From the NCBI GenBank assembly GCA_018650185.1, contig JABIGL010000093.1, positions 1 through 32,761 of the forward strand: a DNA stretch of 32,761 nucleotides, given 5' to 3'. Below, one piece after another: positions 23,298-31,718 of the stretch. Each line of letters starts with the position of its first letter. The stretch's first letter is position 1. Made by a program: the position numbers and the translations under genes. The DNA comes from Chloroflexota bacterium (GTDB lineage Bacteria; Chloroflexota; Dehalococcoidia; Lucifugimonadales; Lucifugimonadaceae). The notes beneath the pieces were generated by a model. The model was not told the origin of the DNA. It ran no database searches and was given only the letters and a program-made list of their open reading frames with translations.

Positions 23298-24194
23298 TTA
23301 CTCCACTCCTAGGATTTCCAACGCATCCCGGTTGATGATGCCCTCGATCTCGGCCTCAGGAATAACCGGCAGGTGGTGGTCCCTGGCGTACTTGGCCAGA
23401 CCGCGCAGTCCATCGATGTTGTCCTTCGGTACGGAGACTGGCCAGTCTGACGCGAGCAGGATCTTCTGCGTCACACCCCATTCGTAAAACGCCATCATGC
23501 CGTTCCAGAACGACCACGGTCGGTAGAACTGCGCCGACACGTCTGCCCACACGTTTGGGTGCTTGCGGACGACGGCCAGGCAGTCGTTCTGCCAGGGATG
23601 ACCGAGGTGCGCCATGACGATCCGCAACTCCGGGAACGCTATCGCCACTTGGTCCATCACGAGCGGCTGGGCATAACGCAGCGGCGCATCTTGCATGGGC
23701 GATGTGCCCTGGTGGAAAACGATCGGCAGGCCGTCTGCTTCGAGTCGCGCGTAAAGCTTGAACGCGGCCTTACCGACGGGGTCGAAGTCCTGGTAGTTCG
23801 GGCCGAGTTTGATTCCCTTGCAACCGAGATCACCGACGGCCCGGTCATACTCATCGTTCATACCGGGGTCCATCGGGTGGAGCGACATGAACGGAATCAC
23901 CTTGTCGGGTGCGGCTTTGTGTAATTCCGCTGCGACATCGTTGAGGTTCTTACCGTCGACTGCGATGTCACCCGGTTGTCCGGTGATCGTCAGCGGCCGC
24001 TCGGACTGCCACGGGCGCGGGGCGATGCCGAAGGCGAATGTCTTGTCCACTGGCTCCATCGCACGGAGGTAATCAACGATGCTGTTGGTCTTCGACACGT
24101 CGGCCCCGGATCGCATCACGTTTTCAGTGCTGCGATCTGAGTCCGGGACGGTGTCGTAGTGGGTCGGAAGATGGGTGTGGACGTCGACGATCAT
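23298..24194 (-). CDS. Amidohydrolase-2 family metal hydrolase / decarboxylase, paralog 2
   Basis: 298 residues from the ATG at 24194, chosen so the product begins MIVDVHTH like its two paralogs; a GTG one codon earlier is in frame. Metal ligands are in the same places: H-x-H at the N-terminus, His in IVFHQGTSPM, His in MAHLGHPW and Asp in LASDWPV. Compared with paralog 1 it is nearly the same from about residue 85 to the end, with differences mostly at 55-82 (here PWQSERPLTITGQPGDI). This pattern is typical of a fairly recent duplication followed by change around one active-site loop. It starts 42 bases after paralog 1 ends. The ribosome site (AAGAAAGA) is weak, so coupling to the gene upstream is likely. 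Confidence 0.9.
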   Translation of the reverse strand: MIVDVHTHLPTHYDTVPDSDRSTENVMRSGADVSKTNSIVDYLRAMEPVDKTFAFGIAPRPWQSERPLTITGQPGDIAVDGKNLNDVAAELHKAAPDKVIPFMSLHPMDPGMNDEYDRAVGDLGCKGIKLGPNYQDFDPVGKAAFKLYARLEADGLPIVFHQGTSPMQDAPLRYAQPLVMDQVAIAFPELRIVMAHLGHPWQNDCLAVVRKHPNVWADVSAQFYRPWSFWNGMMAFYEWGVTQKILLASDWPVSVPKDNIDGLRGLAKYARDHHLPVIPEAEIEGIINRDALEILGVE

Positions 24195-24236
24195 CACGAT
24201 CTTTCTTATTTCAGGCGCTGAGGTGGGACGGTGTGA

Positions 24237-25127
24237 TTAGTCGACGCCCAGAATCTCCAGTGCGTCCCGGTTTATGATTCCCTCGATCTCATCTTCCGGG
24301 ATTACAGGCAGATGGTGGTCTGTGGCGAATTTGGCCAGGTTACGTAGCCCGTCCATGTTGTGCTGTGGAAGGGTTACCGGCCAGTCAGACGCAAAAAGAA
24401 TCTTCTGCGTTACGCCCCATTCGTGGAACAACTGCATGCCGTTCCAGAACGACCATGGCCGGTAGAACTGTGCCGACACGTCTGCCCACACGTTCGGGTG
24501 TTTGCGCACAACGGCCAGACAGTCCGCCTGCCACGGGTGGCCGAGGTGGGCCATCACGATACGTAGTTCCGGGAACGCTATTGCCACCTGGTCCATCACG
24601 AGCGGTTGGGCATAGCGTAGTGGCGCGTCTCGCATCGGAGACGTGCCCTGGTGGAAAACGATTGGCAGACCGTCTGCCTCAAGCCTTGCGTACAGCTTGA
24701 AAGCGTCCTCGCCGACGGGGTCAAAGTTCTGGTAGTTCGGGCCGAGTTTGATCCCTTTGCAGCCCAGATCGCCCACGGCGCGGTCGTATTCGTCATTCAT
24801 CCCGGGGTCTCGCGGATGGAGTGACATGAAGGGGATTACTTTGTCCGGCGCTGCCTTGTGCAGTTCAGCAGCGACATCGTTGTGGTTTTTGCCGTCGACT
24901 GCGAGGTCTCCTTTGCCCTGGATCATCTCCCGCGCAGAGTCCTCCGGACGGGGAGCGATGCCGAAAGCAAAGGTCTTGTCGACGGGCTCCATTGCACGGA
25001 GGTAGTCGGCAATGGTGTTAGTCATCGACACGTCGTCGCCGGACCTCATCATGTTTTCAGACGATCGGTCTGAATCCGGGACTGAATCGCGATGCGTGGG
25101 GAGGTGGGTGTGGACGTCGACGATCAT
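24237..25127 (-). CDS. Amidohydrolase-2 family metal hydrolase / decarboxylase, paralog 1
   Basis: 296 residues from ATG 25127, with CAGGA nine bases upstream; the frame is open to 25154 but the extra nine residues are not shared with the paralogs. Metal ligands: H6 and H8, H159 (IVFHQG), H194 (MAHLGH) and D248 (FASDWP). It is the first gene of a minus-strand run of three amidohydrolases, an MFS transporter and a small membrane protein (25127 to 20594). The promoter should be in 25128-25224, a gap of 97 bases that also separates it from the sensor kinase gene end. Paralogs may act in sequence on one pathway or on related substrates. No dehydrogenase or oxygenase is next to them. Confidence 0.9.
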   Translation of the reverse strand: MIVDVHTHLPTHRDSVPDSDRSSENMMRSGDDVSMTNTIADYLRAMEPVDKTFAFGIAPRPEDSAREMIQGKGDLAVDGKNHNDVAAELHKAAPDKVIPFMSLHPRDPGMNDEYDRAVGDLGCKGIKLGPNYQNFDPVGEDAFKLYARLEADGLPIVFHQGTSPMRDAPLRYAQPLVMDQVAIAFPELRIVMAHLGHPWQADCLAVVRKHPNVWADVSAQFYRPWSFWNGMQLFHEWGVTQKILFASDWPVTLPQHNMDGLRNLAKFATDHHLPVIPEDEIEGIINRDALEILGVD

Positions 25128-25224
25128 TGCGGATTTTCCTGCTTTAAAGGGCACAACCGTTGTATAGGCGGCCCGCAGTGTACGCCCGTACTGCGCTGCG
25201 TCGTAGCGACGCCAGGATAAAGCT

Positions 25225-27223: not shown

Positions 27224-28498
27224 TTACCCGATAGAAAAGTCGCCAAAGGCGGGGCTACCGATCATTCCGGCAGCTACGGTTTCGTTGGTGGACTCATCGA
27301 TCAGAATGAAGCTGCCCGTCGTGCGGTTGTAGTTGTAGTCGTCACAGACCAACGGCGCGCTTGTACGGATCGATACCCGTCCGATGTCGTTCAGACCCAA
27401 TGACGCGCATCCCGAAACCGGCGACAGCGTGTTGATATCTATCTCGCAGTCGAGGCCAGTGATCATCGCCTTTGCCGTGCGCGTCGTGTGCTTGATGCGC
27501 AACATTGTCCCCTGGCGTAGCTCGGTTGAGTCGCTCATCCAGCAAACTGTCGCATCGAAGGTTTGTGTGGTTCGCGGGGAGTCCACAACGGCACTAATCA
27601 TGTCGCCCCGAGAGACGTCAAAGTCATCCGTGAGCCGAATCGATACGGCAGTTTGGGCTGAAGCTTCCTGCGCCTCACCGTCCGGCGTCTCGATGGCGGC
27701 AATGTGTGAGACCTTCCGGGACGGAAGAATCTCGACCTCCTGTCCGACGCGGACAACACCATCGGCTATCGTCCCAGCATAGCTCCGGTAATCGTGGAAC
27801 TCTTGTCGCAAGGGACGGACCACGTACTGCACCGGCAAACGGAGTGGCCGTTCTTTGAGGTCCCGGTCGGTATCGAAATCCTCCAGATACGAAAGCAGCG
27901 GGCCGTCCGAGTACCACGGCATGCGGTCGGAATCGGTCACCACATTGTCGCCCTCAAGTGCGGAGATCGGGAAGAATCGGGCGTCGTTTACGTTCAGGTT
28001 GTCCAGGAGTCCCTGGAACTCGTCCCTGATTGAGGCAAACGTGCCGTAGTCGTAATTGACAAGGTCCATCTTGTTCACACACACGGCCATGTGCCGGATA
28101 CCGAGCAGTGACGCAATCACCGCGTGTCGACGCGACTGCTCAACAACGCCGTTTCGTGCGTCGATGATGATGAGCGCCAGATCCGCGGTGGATGCGCCGG
28201 TCACCATGTTGCGGGTGTACTGCACATGCCCCGGGGTGTCGGCGAGGATGAACTTGCGCTTAGGGGTCGAGAAGTAGCGATACGCTACGTCAATCGTGAT
28301 GCCCTGTTCACGCTCAGCCCTTAGCCCGTCAGTCAGGAGGGCTAGATTGAAATACTCACCGCTCTGCCGCTTGCTGACCTCTTCTGCGGACTCCAGCACA
28401 TCGTCGTATATAGCCTTTGAGTCGTACAAGAGGCGGCCGATAAGGGTGCTTTTGCCGTCGTCTACCGACCCGGCTGTGGCGATTCGAAGCAACTCCAT
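27224..28498 (-). CDS. cysN: Sulfate adenylyltransferase subunit 1 (GTPase)
   Basis: 424 residues. This is the elongation-factor-like GTPase of ATP sulfurylase. The P-loop GSVDDGKSTLIGRLLYD, the switch region DTPGHVQYTRNM, and CVNKMDLV are all present. The protein ends without a fused APS kinase (CysC) domain. With CysD it makes APS from sulfate and ATP, using GTP hydrolysis to drive the reaction. Its ATG overlaps the CysD stop codon (ATGA/TGATG), the usual translational coupling of cysDN. It is the last gene of the operon begun at 30183. No other cys genes (cysC, sulfite reductase, sulfate permease) are in the window. Confidence 0.96.
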   Translation of the reverse strand: MELLRIATAGSVDDGKSTLIGRLLYDSKAIYDDVLESAEEVSKRQSGEYFNLALLTDGLRAEREQGITIDVAYRYFSTPKRKFILADTPGHVQYTRNMVTGASTADLALIIIDARNGVVEQSRRHAVIASLLGIRHMAVCVNKMDLVNYDYGTFASIRDEFQGLLDNLNVNDARFFPISALEGDNVVTDSDRMPWYSDGPLLSYLEDFDTDRDLKERPLRLPVQYVVRPLRQEFHDYRSYAGTIADGVVRVGQEVEILPSRKVSHIAAIETPDGEAQEASAQTAVSIRLTDDFDVSRGDMISAVVDSPRTTQTFDATVCWMSDSTELRQGTMLRIKHTTRTAKAMITGLDCEIDINTLSPVSGCASLGLNDIGRVSIRTSAPLVCDDYNYNRTTGSFILIDESTNETVAAGMIGSPAFGDFSIG

Positions 28499-29430
28499 CA
28501 GAAGTAACCCTCTCGTTTCCGGTCTTCCATGGCAGCTTCGGAGGTCCGGTCATCCGCCCGGCTCGCGCCGCGTTCGGATGTTCGGGTCGCCGCGATCTCT
28601 GCGATCACATGGTCCAACGTGGTTGCCGTTGATGGCACGGCACCGGTTACCGTCATGTCGCCGACGGTGCGGAAGCGAACGGACTGAACGCTGACCGTCT
28701 CCCCCGGTCCCGGAGTTACGAAGTCAGAGACCGCCATCAGCATGCCGTCCCTCTCAAACACCTCACGTTCGTGGGCGTAGTAGATCGACGGGAGCTCCAG
28801 ATTTTGATCTGAGATGTACTGCCAGATATCCAGCTCGGTCCAGTTAGATATCGGAAACACGCGGATGTGCTGACCGGGGTGGATGAAACCGTTAAACAGG
28901 TTCCAAAGCTCCGGTCGCTGATTCTTCGGATCCCACTGTCCGAACTCGTCCCGGAACGAGTACACCCGCTCCTTGGCACGAGAACGCTCTTCATCCCGGC
29001 GCGCTCCGCCGTACATCGCCCCAAAATCGTGTTCTCGAATCGTGTCCAGGAGCACCGGTGTCTGCAGCCGGTTTCTGGAGCCGCCTCGATCTGAACTCTC
29101 CGGGATGCGACCACTAGCGATGGCGTCAGGAACTGAACCGACGACCAGCTCAAGGCCAAGCCGTTCGACCGTGTTGTCCCGGTACTCGATCACTTCAGGG
29201 AAGTTGTGGCCGGTGTCGATGTGGACGATGGGAATTGGCAGACCGGCCGGTGCCATCGCCTTAACGGCCAGATGGAGCATGACGATCGAGTCCTTGCCGC
29301 CTGAAAACAGCAGGGCAGGGCGATCAAACTCGGCGATCCCTTCCCGAATGATGTGTATGGATTCGGACTCAAGCGCTCTGAGCTGGCCGGCGTCCGGGAG
29401 TGAGGATGTAACGGCGATAGTTGCGTTCAT
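28498..29430 (-). CDS. cysD: Sulfate adenylyltransferase subunit 2
   Basis: 310 residues, the usual length. The N-type ATP pyrophosphatase loop is FSGGKDSIVMLHLA. The blocks ARRDEERSRAKERVYSFRDEF, WDPKNQRPELWNLFNG and VFPISNWTELDIWQYI are typical of CysD. It transfers AMP from ATP to sulfate, together with the GTPase CysN. The ATG is 9 bases after the cysH stop codon with only a partial ribosome site, and its own stop overlaps the cysN start, so the three genes are one unit. No unusual features. Confidence 0.96.
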   Translation of the reverse strand: MNATIAVTSSLPDAGQLRALESESIHIIREGIAEFDRPALLFSGGKDSIVMLHLAVKAMAPAGLPIPIVHIDTGHNFPEVIEYRDNTVERLGLELVVGSVPDAIASGRIPESSDRGGSRNRLQTPVLLDTIREHDFGAMYGGARRDEERSRAKERVYSFRDEFGQWDPKNQRPELWNLFNGFIHPGQHIRVFPISNWTELDIWQYISDQNLELPSIYYAHEREVFERDGMLMAVSDFVTPGPGETVSVQSVRFRTVGDMTVTGAVPSTATTLDHVIAEIAATRTSERGASRADDRTSEAAMEDRKREGYF

Positions 29431-29439
29431 AAGTGTTAG

Positions 29440-30183
29440 TTACCTGGTAGCGGCAGCAATAACGTGAAGACCGCACTCCTTGGCATCCGGGTCGCTCTCC
29501 CACCACCAACGTCCGGCGCGGATGTCTTCATCCGGCTCGACCGCTCGTGTGCAGGGCGCGCAGCCCAGGCTTGGGAAGCCCTTGTCGTGTAGTTCGTTAT
29601 ATGGAACCGAGAACTCGGCGATGTATTCCTTCACCTGTTCAAAGGTCCAGTCCGCGAGGGGACTGATCTTGTACGAGTCGTGCGTAGCGTCCCATTCGAC
29701 GAGATCGATACTCCCGCGGTCCATGCCCTGATCTCGTCGTAGACCGGTAATCCAGCCATCTACGGAATTCAGGGCGCGCCCGAGTGGTTCTACTTTGCGG
29801 ACACCGCAACACATCTTCCGGTTGTCCATACCCTTGTAGAACAGGTTGTAACCCCGCTCCTCGACCATGGCCCTTACCTCGTCCATGTCCGGGTAGAAGG
29901 CCTCGATCCTGGTTCCATACCGGGTGCTTGCCTGGTCGAACAGGGTGTAGGTCTCGGTAGGGAGTCGCTGCGTGTCCAGCGTCATTACTCGGGCGTCAGG
30001 TGTGATGCGCCAGAACATGTCCAGCAGGACCATGTCTTCAAGTCCAAAGCTGGACATGAGCGCCACATCGTTTCCAAGCTCTTCGTGCGCCCACAACAGG
30101 ATTTCCTGCGGATTGGCACCTTCAAGCTCCTGGTTTATTTCCGATAGCCTCTCGGCCGTCGGCGTCTGGATCTGTTTCGTCAC
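29440..30183 (-). CDS. cysH: Adenylyl-sulfate (APS) reductase, assimilatory
   Basis: 247 residues from a GTG start with GAGGA five bases upstream. The core is the PAPS/APS reductase fold (VALMSSFGLEDMVLLDMF, VMTLDTQRLPTETY). C125-C126 (KMCCGVRK) and C208xxC211 (LGCAPCTRA) are the four ligands of the [4Fe-4S] cluster that marks APS reductases and is absent from enteric PAPS reductase. C237 in KECGLH is the catalytic Cys. It reduces APS to sulfite with thioredoxin. Together with the lack of a CysC domain in CysN, this points to the short route sulfate to APS to sulfite, without PAPS. It is the first structural gene of the operon, behind a cysteine-codon leader and terminator. Confidence 0.95.
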   Translation of the reverse strand: MTKQIQTPTAERLSEINQELEGANPQEILLWAHEELGNDVALMSSFGLEDMVLLDMFWRITPDARVMTLDTQRLPTETYTLFDQASTRYGTRIEAFYPDMDEVRAMVEERGYNLFYKGMDNRKMCCGVRKVEPLGRALNSVDGWITGLRRDQGMDRGSIDLVEWDATHDSYKISPLADWTFEQVKEYIAEFSVPYNELHDKGFPSLGCAPCTRAVEPDEDIRAGRWWWESDPDAKECGLHVIAAATR

Positions 30184-30204
30184 ATCGTCCTCTGGTTTTC
30201 AACA

Positions 30205-30250
30205 GGCAATAAAAAACCCCCCGAGACCGGTGAGGTCTTCGAGGGGTTTG
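30205..30250 (-). terminator. Attenuator terminator in the cysH leader
   Basis: In the minus-strand RNA CCCCTCGAAGACC (30246-30234), loop TCACC, and GGTCTCGGGGGG (30228-30217) make a stem of about 12 pairs with one bulged A and one U-G, followed by TTTTTTATT. It lies between the leader peptide stop codon and the cysH start codon (22 bases after the T-run), so it stops transcription before the operon unless it is prevented from forming. The 5' arm CCCCTC (30246-30241) can pair instead with GAGGGG (30301-30296) in the leader ORF, giving an antiterminator; GAG (30295-30293) with CTC (30252-30250) extends that pairing. Confidence 0.85.
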
Positions 30251-30283
30251 AGTCAGCATCCGTTTGCGCTTGTACGCGTTACG

Positions 30284-30352
30284 TCAGGCAGGCTCCCCCT
30301 CTGGGGTCCCACAACACGCACAGGCGCAGTTCTTGTCGATATTCATAAACAT
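30284..30352 (-). CDS. Cysteine-rich leader peptide of the cys operon
   Basis: A 22-codon ORF, ATG 30352 to TGA 30286-30284. The peptide starts MFMNIDKN, residues 9-14 are CACACC, and it ends GTPEGEPA. Four Cys codons in six (TGC, TGT, TGT, TGT) just before paired GC-rich segments and a terminator are the mark of amino-acid attenuation. A ribosome waiting at Cys 14 would cover CCCC (30306-30303), freeing GAGGGG (30301-30296) to hold the terminator's 5' arm, so transcription goes on. A ribosome that reaches the stop codon would cover GAGGGG, and the terminator forms. The product regulates in cis and is probably degraded. No ribosome site is seen; the predicted transcript start is so close that the ORF may be leaderless. 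Cys-codon leaders are known for actinobacterial cys genes. Confidence 0.8.
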   Translation of the reverse strand: MFMNIDKNCACACCGTPEGEPA

Positions 30353-30357
30353 GATGG

Positions 30358-30391
30358 TTCGAGTGTAAGCCACGTAAGGCCTCTTTGCGAA
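30358..30391 (-). promoter_or_regulatory. Candidate promoter of the cys operon
   Basis: On the minus strand TTCGCA (30391-30386) and TACACT (30367-30362) are 18 bases apart and match 4 of 6 bases each of the sigma-70 boxes. A start about seven bases after the -10 would fall at 30353-30356, directly next to the leader ATG at 30352. This is weak evidence and rests on spacing to the leader ORF. Confidence 0.35.

Positions 30392-30410: not shown

Positions 30411-31718
<1,308 letters not shown>

Follow-up and report, generated by a model that had tools for sequence, protein, structure and literature searches.

A cysteine-codon leader and an intrinsic terminator lie upstream of cysH-cysD-cysN

The window, by which we mean the whole stretch of 32,761 nucleotides that was analyzed, carries on its minus strand a promoter-like TACACT, a short leader open reading frame (ORF), a hairpin followed by a U-run, and the genes cysH, cysD, and cysN, in this order. 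The features of the locus are as follows.

30362 to 30367, minus strand: −10 box TACACT, assigned by consensus, 9 nt upstream of the leader start
30284 to 30352, minus strand: leader ORF of 22 codons, MFMNIDKNCACACCGTPEGEPA, with its ATG at 30352 and the stop codon TGA at 30286 to 30284 included
30311 to 30328, minus strand: regulatory codons Cys-Ala-Cys-Ala-Cys-Cys (CACACC, residues 9 to 14), the proposed stall site
30303 to 30306, minus strand: segment 1, CCCC, whose partner is segment 2 in a weakly supported 1:2 hairpin
30295 to 30301, minus strand: segment 2, GAGGGGG (GAGGGG at 30301 to 30296), putative 5′ strand of the antiterminator
30241 to 30248, minus strand: segment 3, AACCCCTC (CCCCTC at 30246 to 30241), common to the putative antiterminator (with segment 2) and the terminator (with segment 4)
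30211 to 30222, minus strand: segment 4, GGGGGG (30222 to 30217), and U-run, TTTTTT (30216 to 30211), the 3′ arm and tail of the terminator
30211 to 30248, minus strand: terminator hairpin, AACCCCTCGA...TCGGGGGGTT, with the U-run
29440 to 30183, minus strand: cysH, (phospho)adenylyl-sulfate reductase, with a GTG start at 30183 and the Shine-Dalgarno sequence AGAGGA at 30193 to 30188
28498 to 29430, minus strand: cysD, sulfate adenylyltransferase small subunit
27224 to 28498, minus strand: cysN, sulfate adenylyltransferase large subunit, whose first base is also the last of cysD

The leader is about 140 nt long, and the ribosome-binding site (RBS) of cysH lies about 20 nt downstream of the U-run. 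A preliminary description of this DNA had reported the 22-codon ORF and its CACACC cluster as we find them; its coordinates for the four RNA segments and the six T residues that follow also hold, except that segment 4 is GGGGGG and not GGGG. A protease gene (30411 to 31718) lies upstream on the same strand as the leader and ends 59 nt before it. Just 3′ of the leader stop (30280 to 30264 in the window), homologous leaders often have a CGCG/GCGC-rich stretch that can form a small hairpin within the 2:3 loop. Elsewhere on the minus strand of the window are two tandem, closely similar amidohydrolase-like ORFs (23298 to 24197 and 24237 to 25154).

The leader and terminator recur upstream of cysH in the genus and family

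We found cysH in 29 of 60 related genomes searched. An automatic criterion (three clustered Cys within an upstream ORF no longer than 70 codons) identified a Cys-codon ORF at 16 of these 29 loci, and about five more were recognized by eye. The automatically identified leaders usually have 20 to 25 codons from their likely start and end 100 to 190 nt before cysH. Despite diverged sequence, a short Cys-codon ORF and an intrinsic terminator lie upstream of cysH in every one of the five genomes of the genus that have the gene, and the same is true of most cysH-bearing genomes of the GTDB family. Examples from other genera are MRKPQVCPNCACTCRSEHSEGSA, MKMFITRRANMCTCCCPSPAREIG, and MNLEARNAKCFCCTAAGRQAGH. 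Leaders with two Cys codons and a terminator also occur (L024, with MKNCLCKT before the stop codon, and L028), and one genus has a weaker ECSC leader (L018 to L020). The leader is absent before cysH of two family members (G008 and G018).

Within the same order, the unit precedes cysH at loci from other families (L026, L027, L028, L030, L201, and L247). Neither some 60 cysH loci from the rest of the class nor 74 of other phyla showed a convincing Cys leader with a terminator, with one locus, L255, being doubtful. The scan covered 450 to 700 nt from cysH, so that leaders heading longer operons would be missed. At one locus in SAR202 cluster bacterium OSU_BB04 (L043, about 1394 to 1724), a TATAAT box and a terminator lie upstream of cysH with no Cys leader, and a short ORF in that region has many Ser codons (VKSQSKMIKSFLSRSRI). 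Elsewhere in the class, many matches to cysH span one in-frame stop codon that recurs across genomes: TGA in family f61 (e.g., G130, G156, G186, and G287) and TAA or TAG in family f85. This may reflect recoding or simply alignments that extend beyond the end of the gene.

Promoter position suggests that the leader mRNAs are leaderless

The hexamer TANNNT is found 5 to 10 nt upstream of the start codon in 46 of 55 leaders, with a mode of 9 nt; 500 shuffled leader sets had it there in 7 leaders on average and in 13 at most. Search patterns that contain a −10 box bias this statistic, and we therefore repeated the count without the leaders found that way, obtaining 35 of 44. An extended −10 element (TGN before the hexamer) is present in 20 of the 46, compared to about 3 expected. 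None of the 55 leaders has a 5-base Shine-Dalgarno match. Given a −10 box so close to the start codon and no Shine-Dalgarno match, the leader mRNAs are probably leaderless or nearly leaderless, and the promoter position would put the Cys-run ORF right at the 5′ terminus of the mRNA. The promoter of the window was assigned by consensus only, and no site passed the threshold of a sigma-70 scan. Within the genus, TTGACA precedes the sulfite-reductase leaders, separated by about 17 nt from a TACGAT- or TAGGAT-like −10 box that lies about 9 nt before RTG; the leader in the genome of the window (contig C185) reads TTGACA-17-TACGAT-9-ATG and encodes MNHFGTKTRACACCGTT, followed by a stop codon and then a terminator. 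Predictions for some Chloroflexi genomes include leaderless genes with TA signals at such a position (PMC3160421).

Segment 2 covaries with the 5′ arm of the terminator

A terminator hairpin with a U-run follows nearly every leader and places an intrinsic terminator between the leader ORF and the structural gene. In the window, the terminator folds at −20.7 kcal/mol (z = −3.46; reached by 0 of 200 shuffles), and the stretch containing segments 2 and 3 adopts the proposed fold at −22.4 kcal/mol (z = −2.0). The 1:2 stem pairs CCCC with GGGG around a 3-nt AGA loop, and flanking pairs extend the fold to −11.8 kcal/mol, which is unremarkable by itself (z = −0.3). Across 19 leaders, the 1:2 hairpin is a plausible fold with modest support, and its mean z of −0.9 makes it the least secure element.

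The 2:3 pairing was examined in 54 non-redundant leaders by comparing native with all swapped duplexes between the stretch after the last Cys codon (the segment 2 region) and the 5′ arm of the terminator (segment 3). The native duplexes average −14.6 kcal/mol, the swapped ones −11.6 kcal/mol. After removal of row and column effects, the native excess is about −3 kcal/mol, a value reached by 0 of 20,000 permutations. The result was again 0 of 20,000 for one leader per genus and target (n = 19), for GC-rich genomes only (n = 16), and for cysH alone (n = 13). By this comparison, the leaders have an antiterminator that competes for the 5′ arm of the terminator, as expected of a ribosome-mediated transcription attenuator. 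For example, L030 has CCGCCGGG in segment 2 and CCCGGCGG in the terminator arm in place of the GAGGGG and CCCCTC of the window. In low-GC genera, the 2:3 pairing is weak. In the set of eight orthologous leaders of sulfite reductase, every cell of the terminator stem is paired (100%; slid controls, <58%), with two-sided changes at two pairs; the aligned 2:3 pairs of this closely related set are 89% paired, which is not above shuffles. A two-sequence alignment for the window revealed nothing.

The spacing of these elements is also regular. The median distance from the last Cys codon to the start of segment 2 is 7.5 nt, and that from the end of segment 2 to the stop codon is 9 nt. In the window, as in most homologues, segment 2 has its 3′ end about 16 nt past the last Cys codon. 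The U-run follows the leader stop at a near-constant distance (median, 58 nt; interquartile range, 54 to 62). With ordinary ribosome footprints, segment 2 is free or almost free while a ribosome occupies the Cys cluster and is covered once the ribosome is at the stop codon, which is the geometry of an attenuator; on the very last Cys codon, a ribosome would touch the edge of segment 2.

The preliminary description had claimed that 1:2, 2:3, and 3:4 can each pair, that the segments suit a ribosome stalled either in the Cys cluster or at the stop codon, and that relatives should retain both ORF and pairing. The two medians agree with the ribosome positions, and the Cys-codon ORF with its terminator does recur before cysH across the genus and family. 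Covariation bears out 2:3, as the permutations indicate, and also 3:4 (in the sulfite-reductase set), whereas 1:2 is the least supported of the three pairings.

The same unit precedes other sulfur genes

We searched genomes for a Cys-cluster-plus-terminator pattern, TGYNNNTGYNNNTGYN{62,92}GGGTTTTT, and our genome-wide counts of units are based on such pattern searches. Across all 76 genomes of the family, the pattern had 67 matches, compared with 4 for a reversed control, while a His-codon version had 5 matches versus 8 for its control. Together with the conservation in relatives, these counts exclude chance. In the wider class outside the family, the Cys pattern was at chance level (8 matches versus 10 for the control).

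Besides cysH-cysD-cysN, the genes behind Cys leaders are those of YeeE/YedE sulfur transporters (PF04143) with TusA (PF01206), DUF4395 membrane proteins (PF14340), a peroxiredoxin followed by a DUF4395-like gene, the O-acetylhomoserine/O-acetylserine sulfhydrylase MetY (TIGR01326), TauE/SafE (PF01925), PhyH dioxygenases (PF05721), a ThiF/MoeB-like gene with a CysM-like gene (assigned by sequence reading), and a 44-amino-acid (44-aa) ORF without a family. The unit is upstream of the sulfite reductase gene (PF01077) in eight of eight genomes of the genus; the leaders of two of them (G002 and G007) have lost Cys codons, and no cysH was found in either genome. In family genera with genomes of about 1.3 Mb and no detected cysH, the unit precedes the YeeE operon. 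The genome of the window (G000) has at least three units, located before cysHDN, sulfite reductase (C185), and the 44-aa ORF (C85:11233). The presence of the device before other sulfur genes of the same genome, like the probable leaderless start, goes beyond the preliminary description.

The 44-aa ORF (MATSTHIPSPIRNERPGVFRSSWTRTVSAFRRLINAVDGLGIEP in G000) is the only gene between a Cys attenuator and a second terminator (C85, about 11233 to 10900; L035/L160) and is also found at L149, L150, L159, L182, L185, and L187. It has no Pfam or NCBIfam match, yet the four genomes for which the full ORF was read all conserve its C-terminal half. Elsewhere in G000 (C43:9375; L033), a 67-aa ORF starts like the DUF4395-type Cys leaders (TACAAT, then MKFQLLNCAC) and reads on, with no terminator or DUF4395 gene behind it; it is possibly a remnant of such a leader. 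A −10 pattern match on C66 of the same genome, with no terminator where one would be expected, was set aside as chance. PhyH-type dioxygenases follow Cys-rich leaders and terminators in genus g12 (L193, L197, L198, L227, L231, and L235), and these leaders have a second cluster, CCTC or CRCTC, at their end. Our guess is that these dioxygenases are linked to organosulfur use.

Because this genome has the unit at sulfite reductase and the 44-aa ORF as well, and the family has it at many other sulfur genes, we suggest that it defines a cysteine regulon that is read by the ribosome and not by a repressor. The best reading is that one Dehalococcoidia family deploys attenuation as a regulon spanning multiple operons.

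A probable ribosome-mediated attenuator that would sense charged tRNA-Cys

The computations establish the ORF with its Cys cluster, the terminator, the 2:3 covariation, the promoter position, and the gene associations. We consider it highly likely that the leader is a ribosome-mediated transcription attenuator sensing charged tRNA-Cys, with leaderless initiation, stalling, read-through, and the cysteine response inferred. Transcription would start at, or a few bases from, the leader start codon, and a ribosome would load at the 5′ end of the mRNA without a Shine-Dalgarno site. When cysteinyl-tRNA is plentiful, the ribosome would pass the Cys codons to the stop codon and mask segment 2, the 3:4 terminator would form, and RNA polymerase would stop at the U-run ahead of cysH. 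When cysteinyl-tRNA is scarce, the ribosome would stall in the Cys cluster and mask segment 1, allowing 2:3 to form in place of the terminator and cysH-cysD-cysN to be transcribed. If the leader were not translated, the 1:2 hairpin would leave termination as the default.

The leader could alternatively act on translation, with a stalled ribosome releasing the cysH RBS from structure. Mycobacterial polycysteine leaders, which are likewise leaderless, were reportedly tested by Canestrari et al. in 2020 and are said to act by freeing a downstream RBS. This type of control masks an RBS without an intrinsic terminator, whereas here a strong G+C-rich hairpin and a U-run stand at a fixed distance after nearly every leader. 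Moreover, segment 2 covaries with the 5′ arm of that hairpin and not with a distant RBS, and the cysH RBS comes only after the U-run. We therefore regard translational control as unlikely.

Still less probable, in our judgment, is that the terminator serves the upstream protease gene and that the Cys ORF is either fortuitous or codes for a Cys-rich (metal-binding) peptide with a function of its own. The proximity and shared strand of the protease gene would allow this, but the ORF-terminator unit recurs ahead of different genes in different genomes and contigs, the peptides differ outside the Cys cluster, and the bases of segment 2 track the terminator and not a peptide motif. We give the lowest probability to a ligand-binding riboswitch or a T-box that senses cysteine or tRNA-Cys directly, with the ORF being secondary. 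Although a T-box would also put a Cys operon under terminator control, no Rfam family comes near its gathering score (the best E value, 0.43, is to an unrelated snoRNA), and in so short a leader the sole constant feature is the codon cluster, with no conserved aptamer-like core seen.

Relationship to known attenuators

In the trp and his attenuators of Escherichia coli, a leader ORF contains codons of the regulated amino acid, and alternative 2:3 and 3:4 pairings control an intrinsic terminator. The ribosome-mediated attenuator proposed here is similar in its leader ORF of cognate codons, in its competing 2:3 and 3:4 pairings, and in the intrinsic terminator before the structural genes. It differs in that cysteine would be sensed, that the ORF is probably leaderless and has no Shine-Dalgarno site, and that many sulfur operons of one genome and family, here of Chloroflexota, are involved. 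Leaderless leader peptides followed by Rho-independent terminators are also known from Streptomyces lividans, such as LeuL2 and TrpL1 (PMC8079986); these share the hairpin and U-run but concern other amino acids in another phylum and do not form a multi-operon cysteine regulon.

Leaderless polycysteine short ORFs precede sulfur and cysteine genes at several loci per genome in mycobacteria (PMC4633059), much like the Cys-run ORFs described here. Cys leaders predicted in Actinobacteria have no obvious terminators (PMC1262725), unlike the present leaders with their intrinsic terminator and covarying antiterminator, and no sequence relation between the two is evident. A similar combination of elements is that of uORFC-8-2 of Rhodobacterales, a Cys-codon uORF with an intrinsic terminator for which ribosome-mediated attenuation has been predicted (PMC8632094). 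However, this alphaproteobacterial uORF has tandem Cys at residues 14 and 15 and precedes cysS, the cysteinyl-tRNA synthetase gene (PMC8632094), whereas the Dehalococcoidia Cys clusters are probably leaderless and precede cysH and other genes of sulfur assimilation and transport.

The preliminary description had suggested that, if the genome is one of Chloroflexota, as is the case, such an attenuator may be undescribed there, and our literature search, limited to one paper collection, likewise found no report of a Cys attenuator in this phylum. As far as that search reaches, the kind of attenuator is known, and its leaderless-plus-terminator form, its phylum, and its breadth appear to be new. 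It would be an example from beyond Actinobacteria and Proteobacteria of cysteine control that couples leaderless translation to intrinsic termination, and its resemblance to the leaderless polycysteine leaders of mycobacteria prompts the question whether the two converged or share an old strategy.

Since most known Dehalococcoidia are metagenome-assembled, their regulation has hardly been tested, and the leaders offer for this class a mechanism readable from sequence together with a list of operons. We think it probable that the sulfur economy of the family is organized as a ribosome-read cysteine regulon, in which dozens of leaderless Cys-codon attenuators with intrinsic terminators control different operons in different genera: sulfate reduction in the large genomes and YeeE sulfur transport in the small genomes without a detected cysH. 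The regulon would also reach the DUF4395 genes, the orphan 44-aa ORF, and the PhyH dioxygenases, and these genes of unknown role could thereby be assigned to cysteine and sulfur supply.
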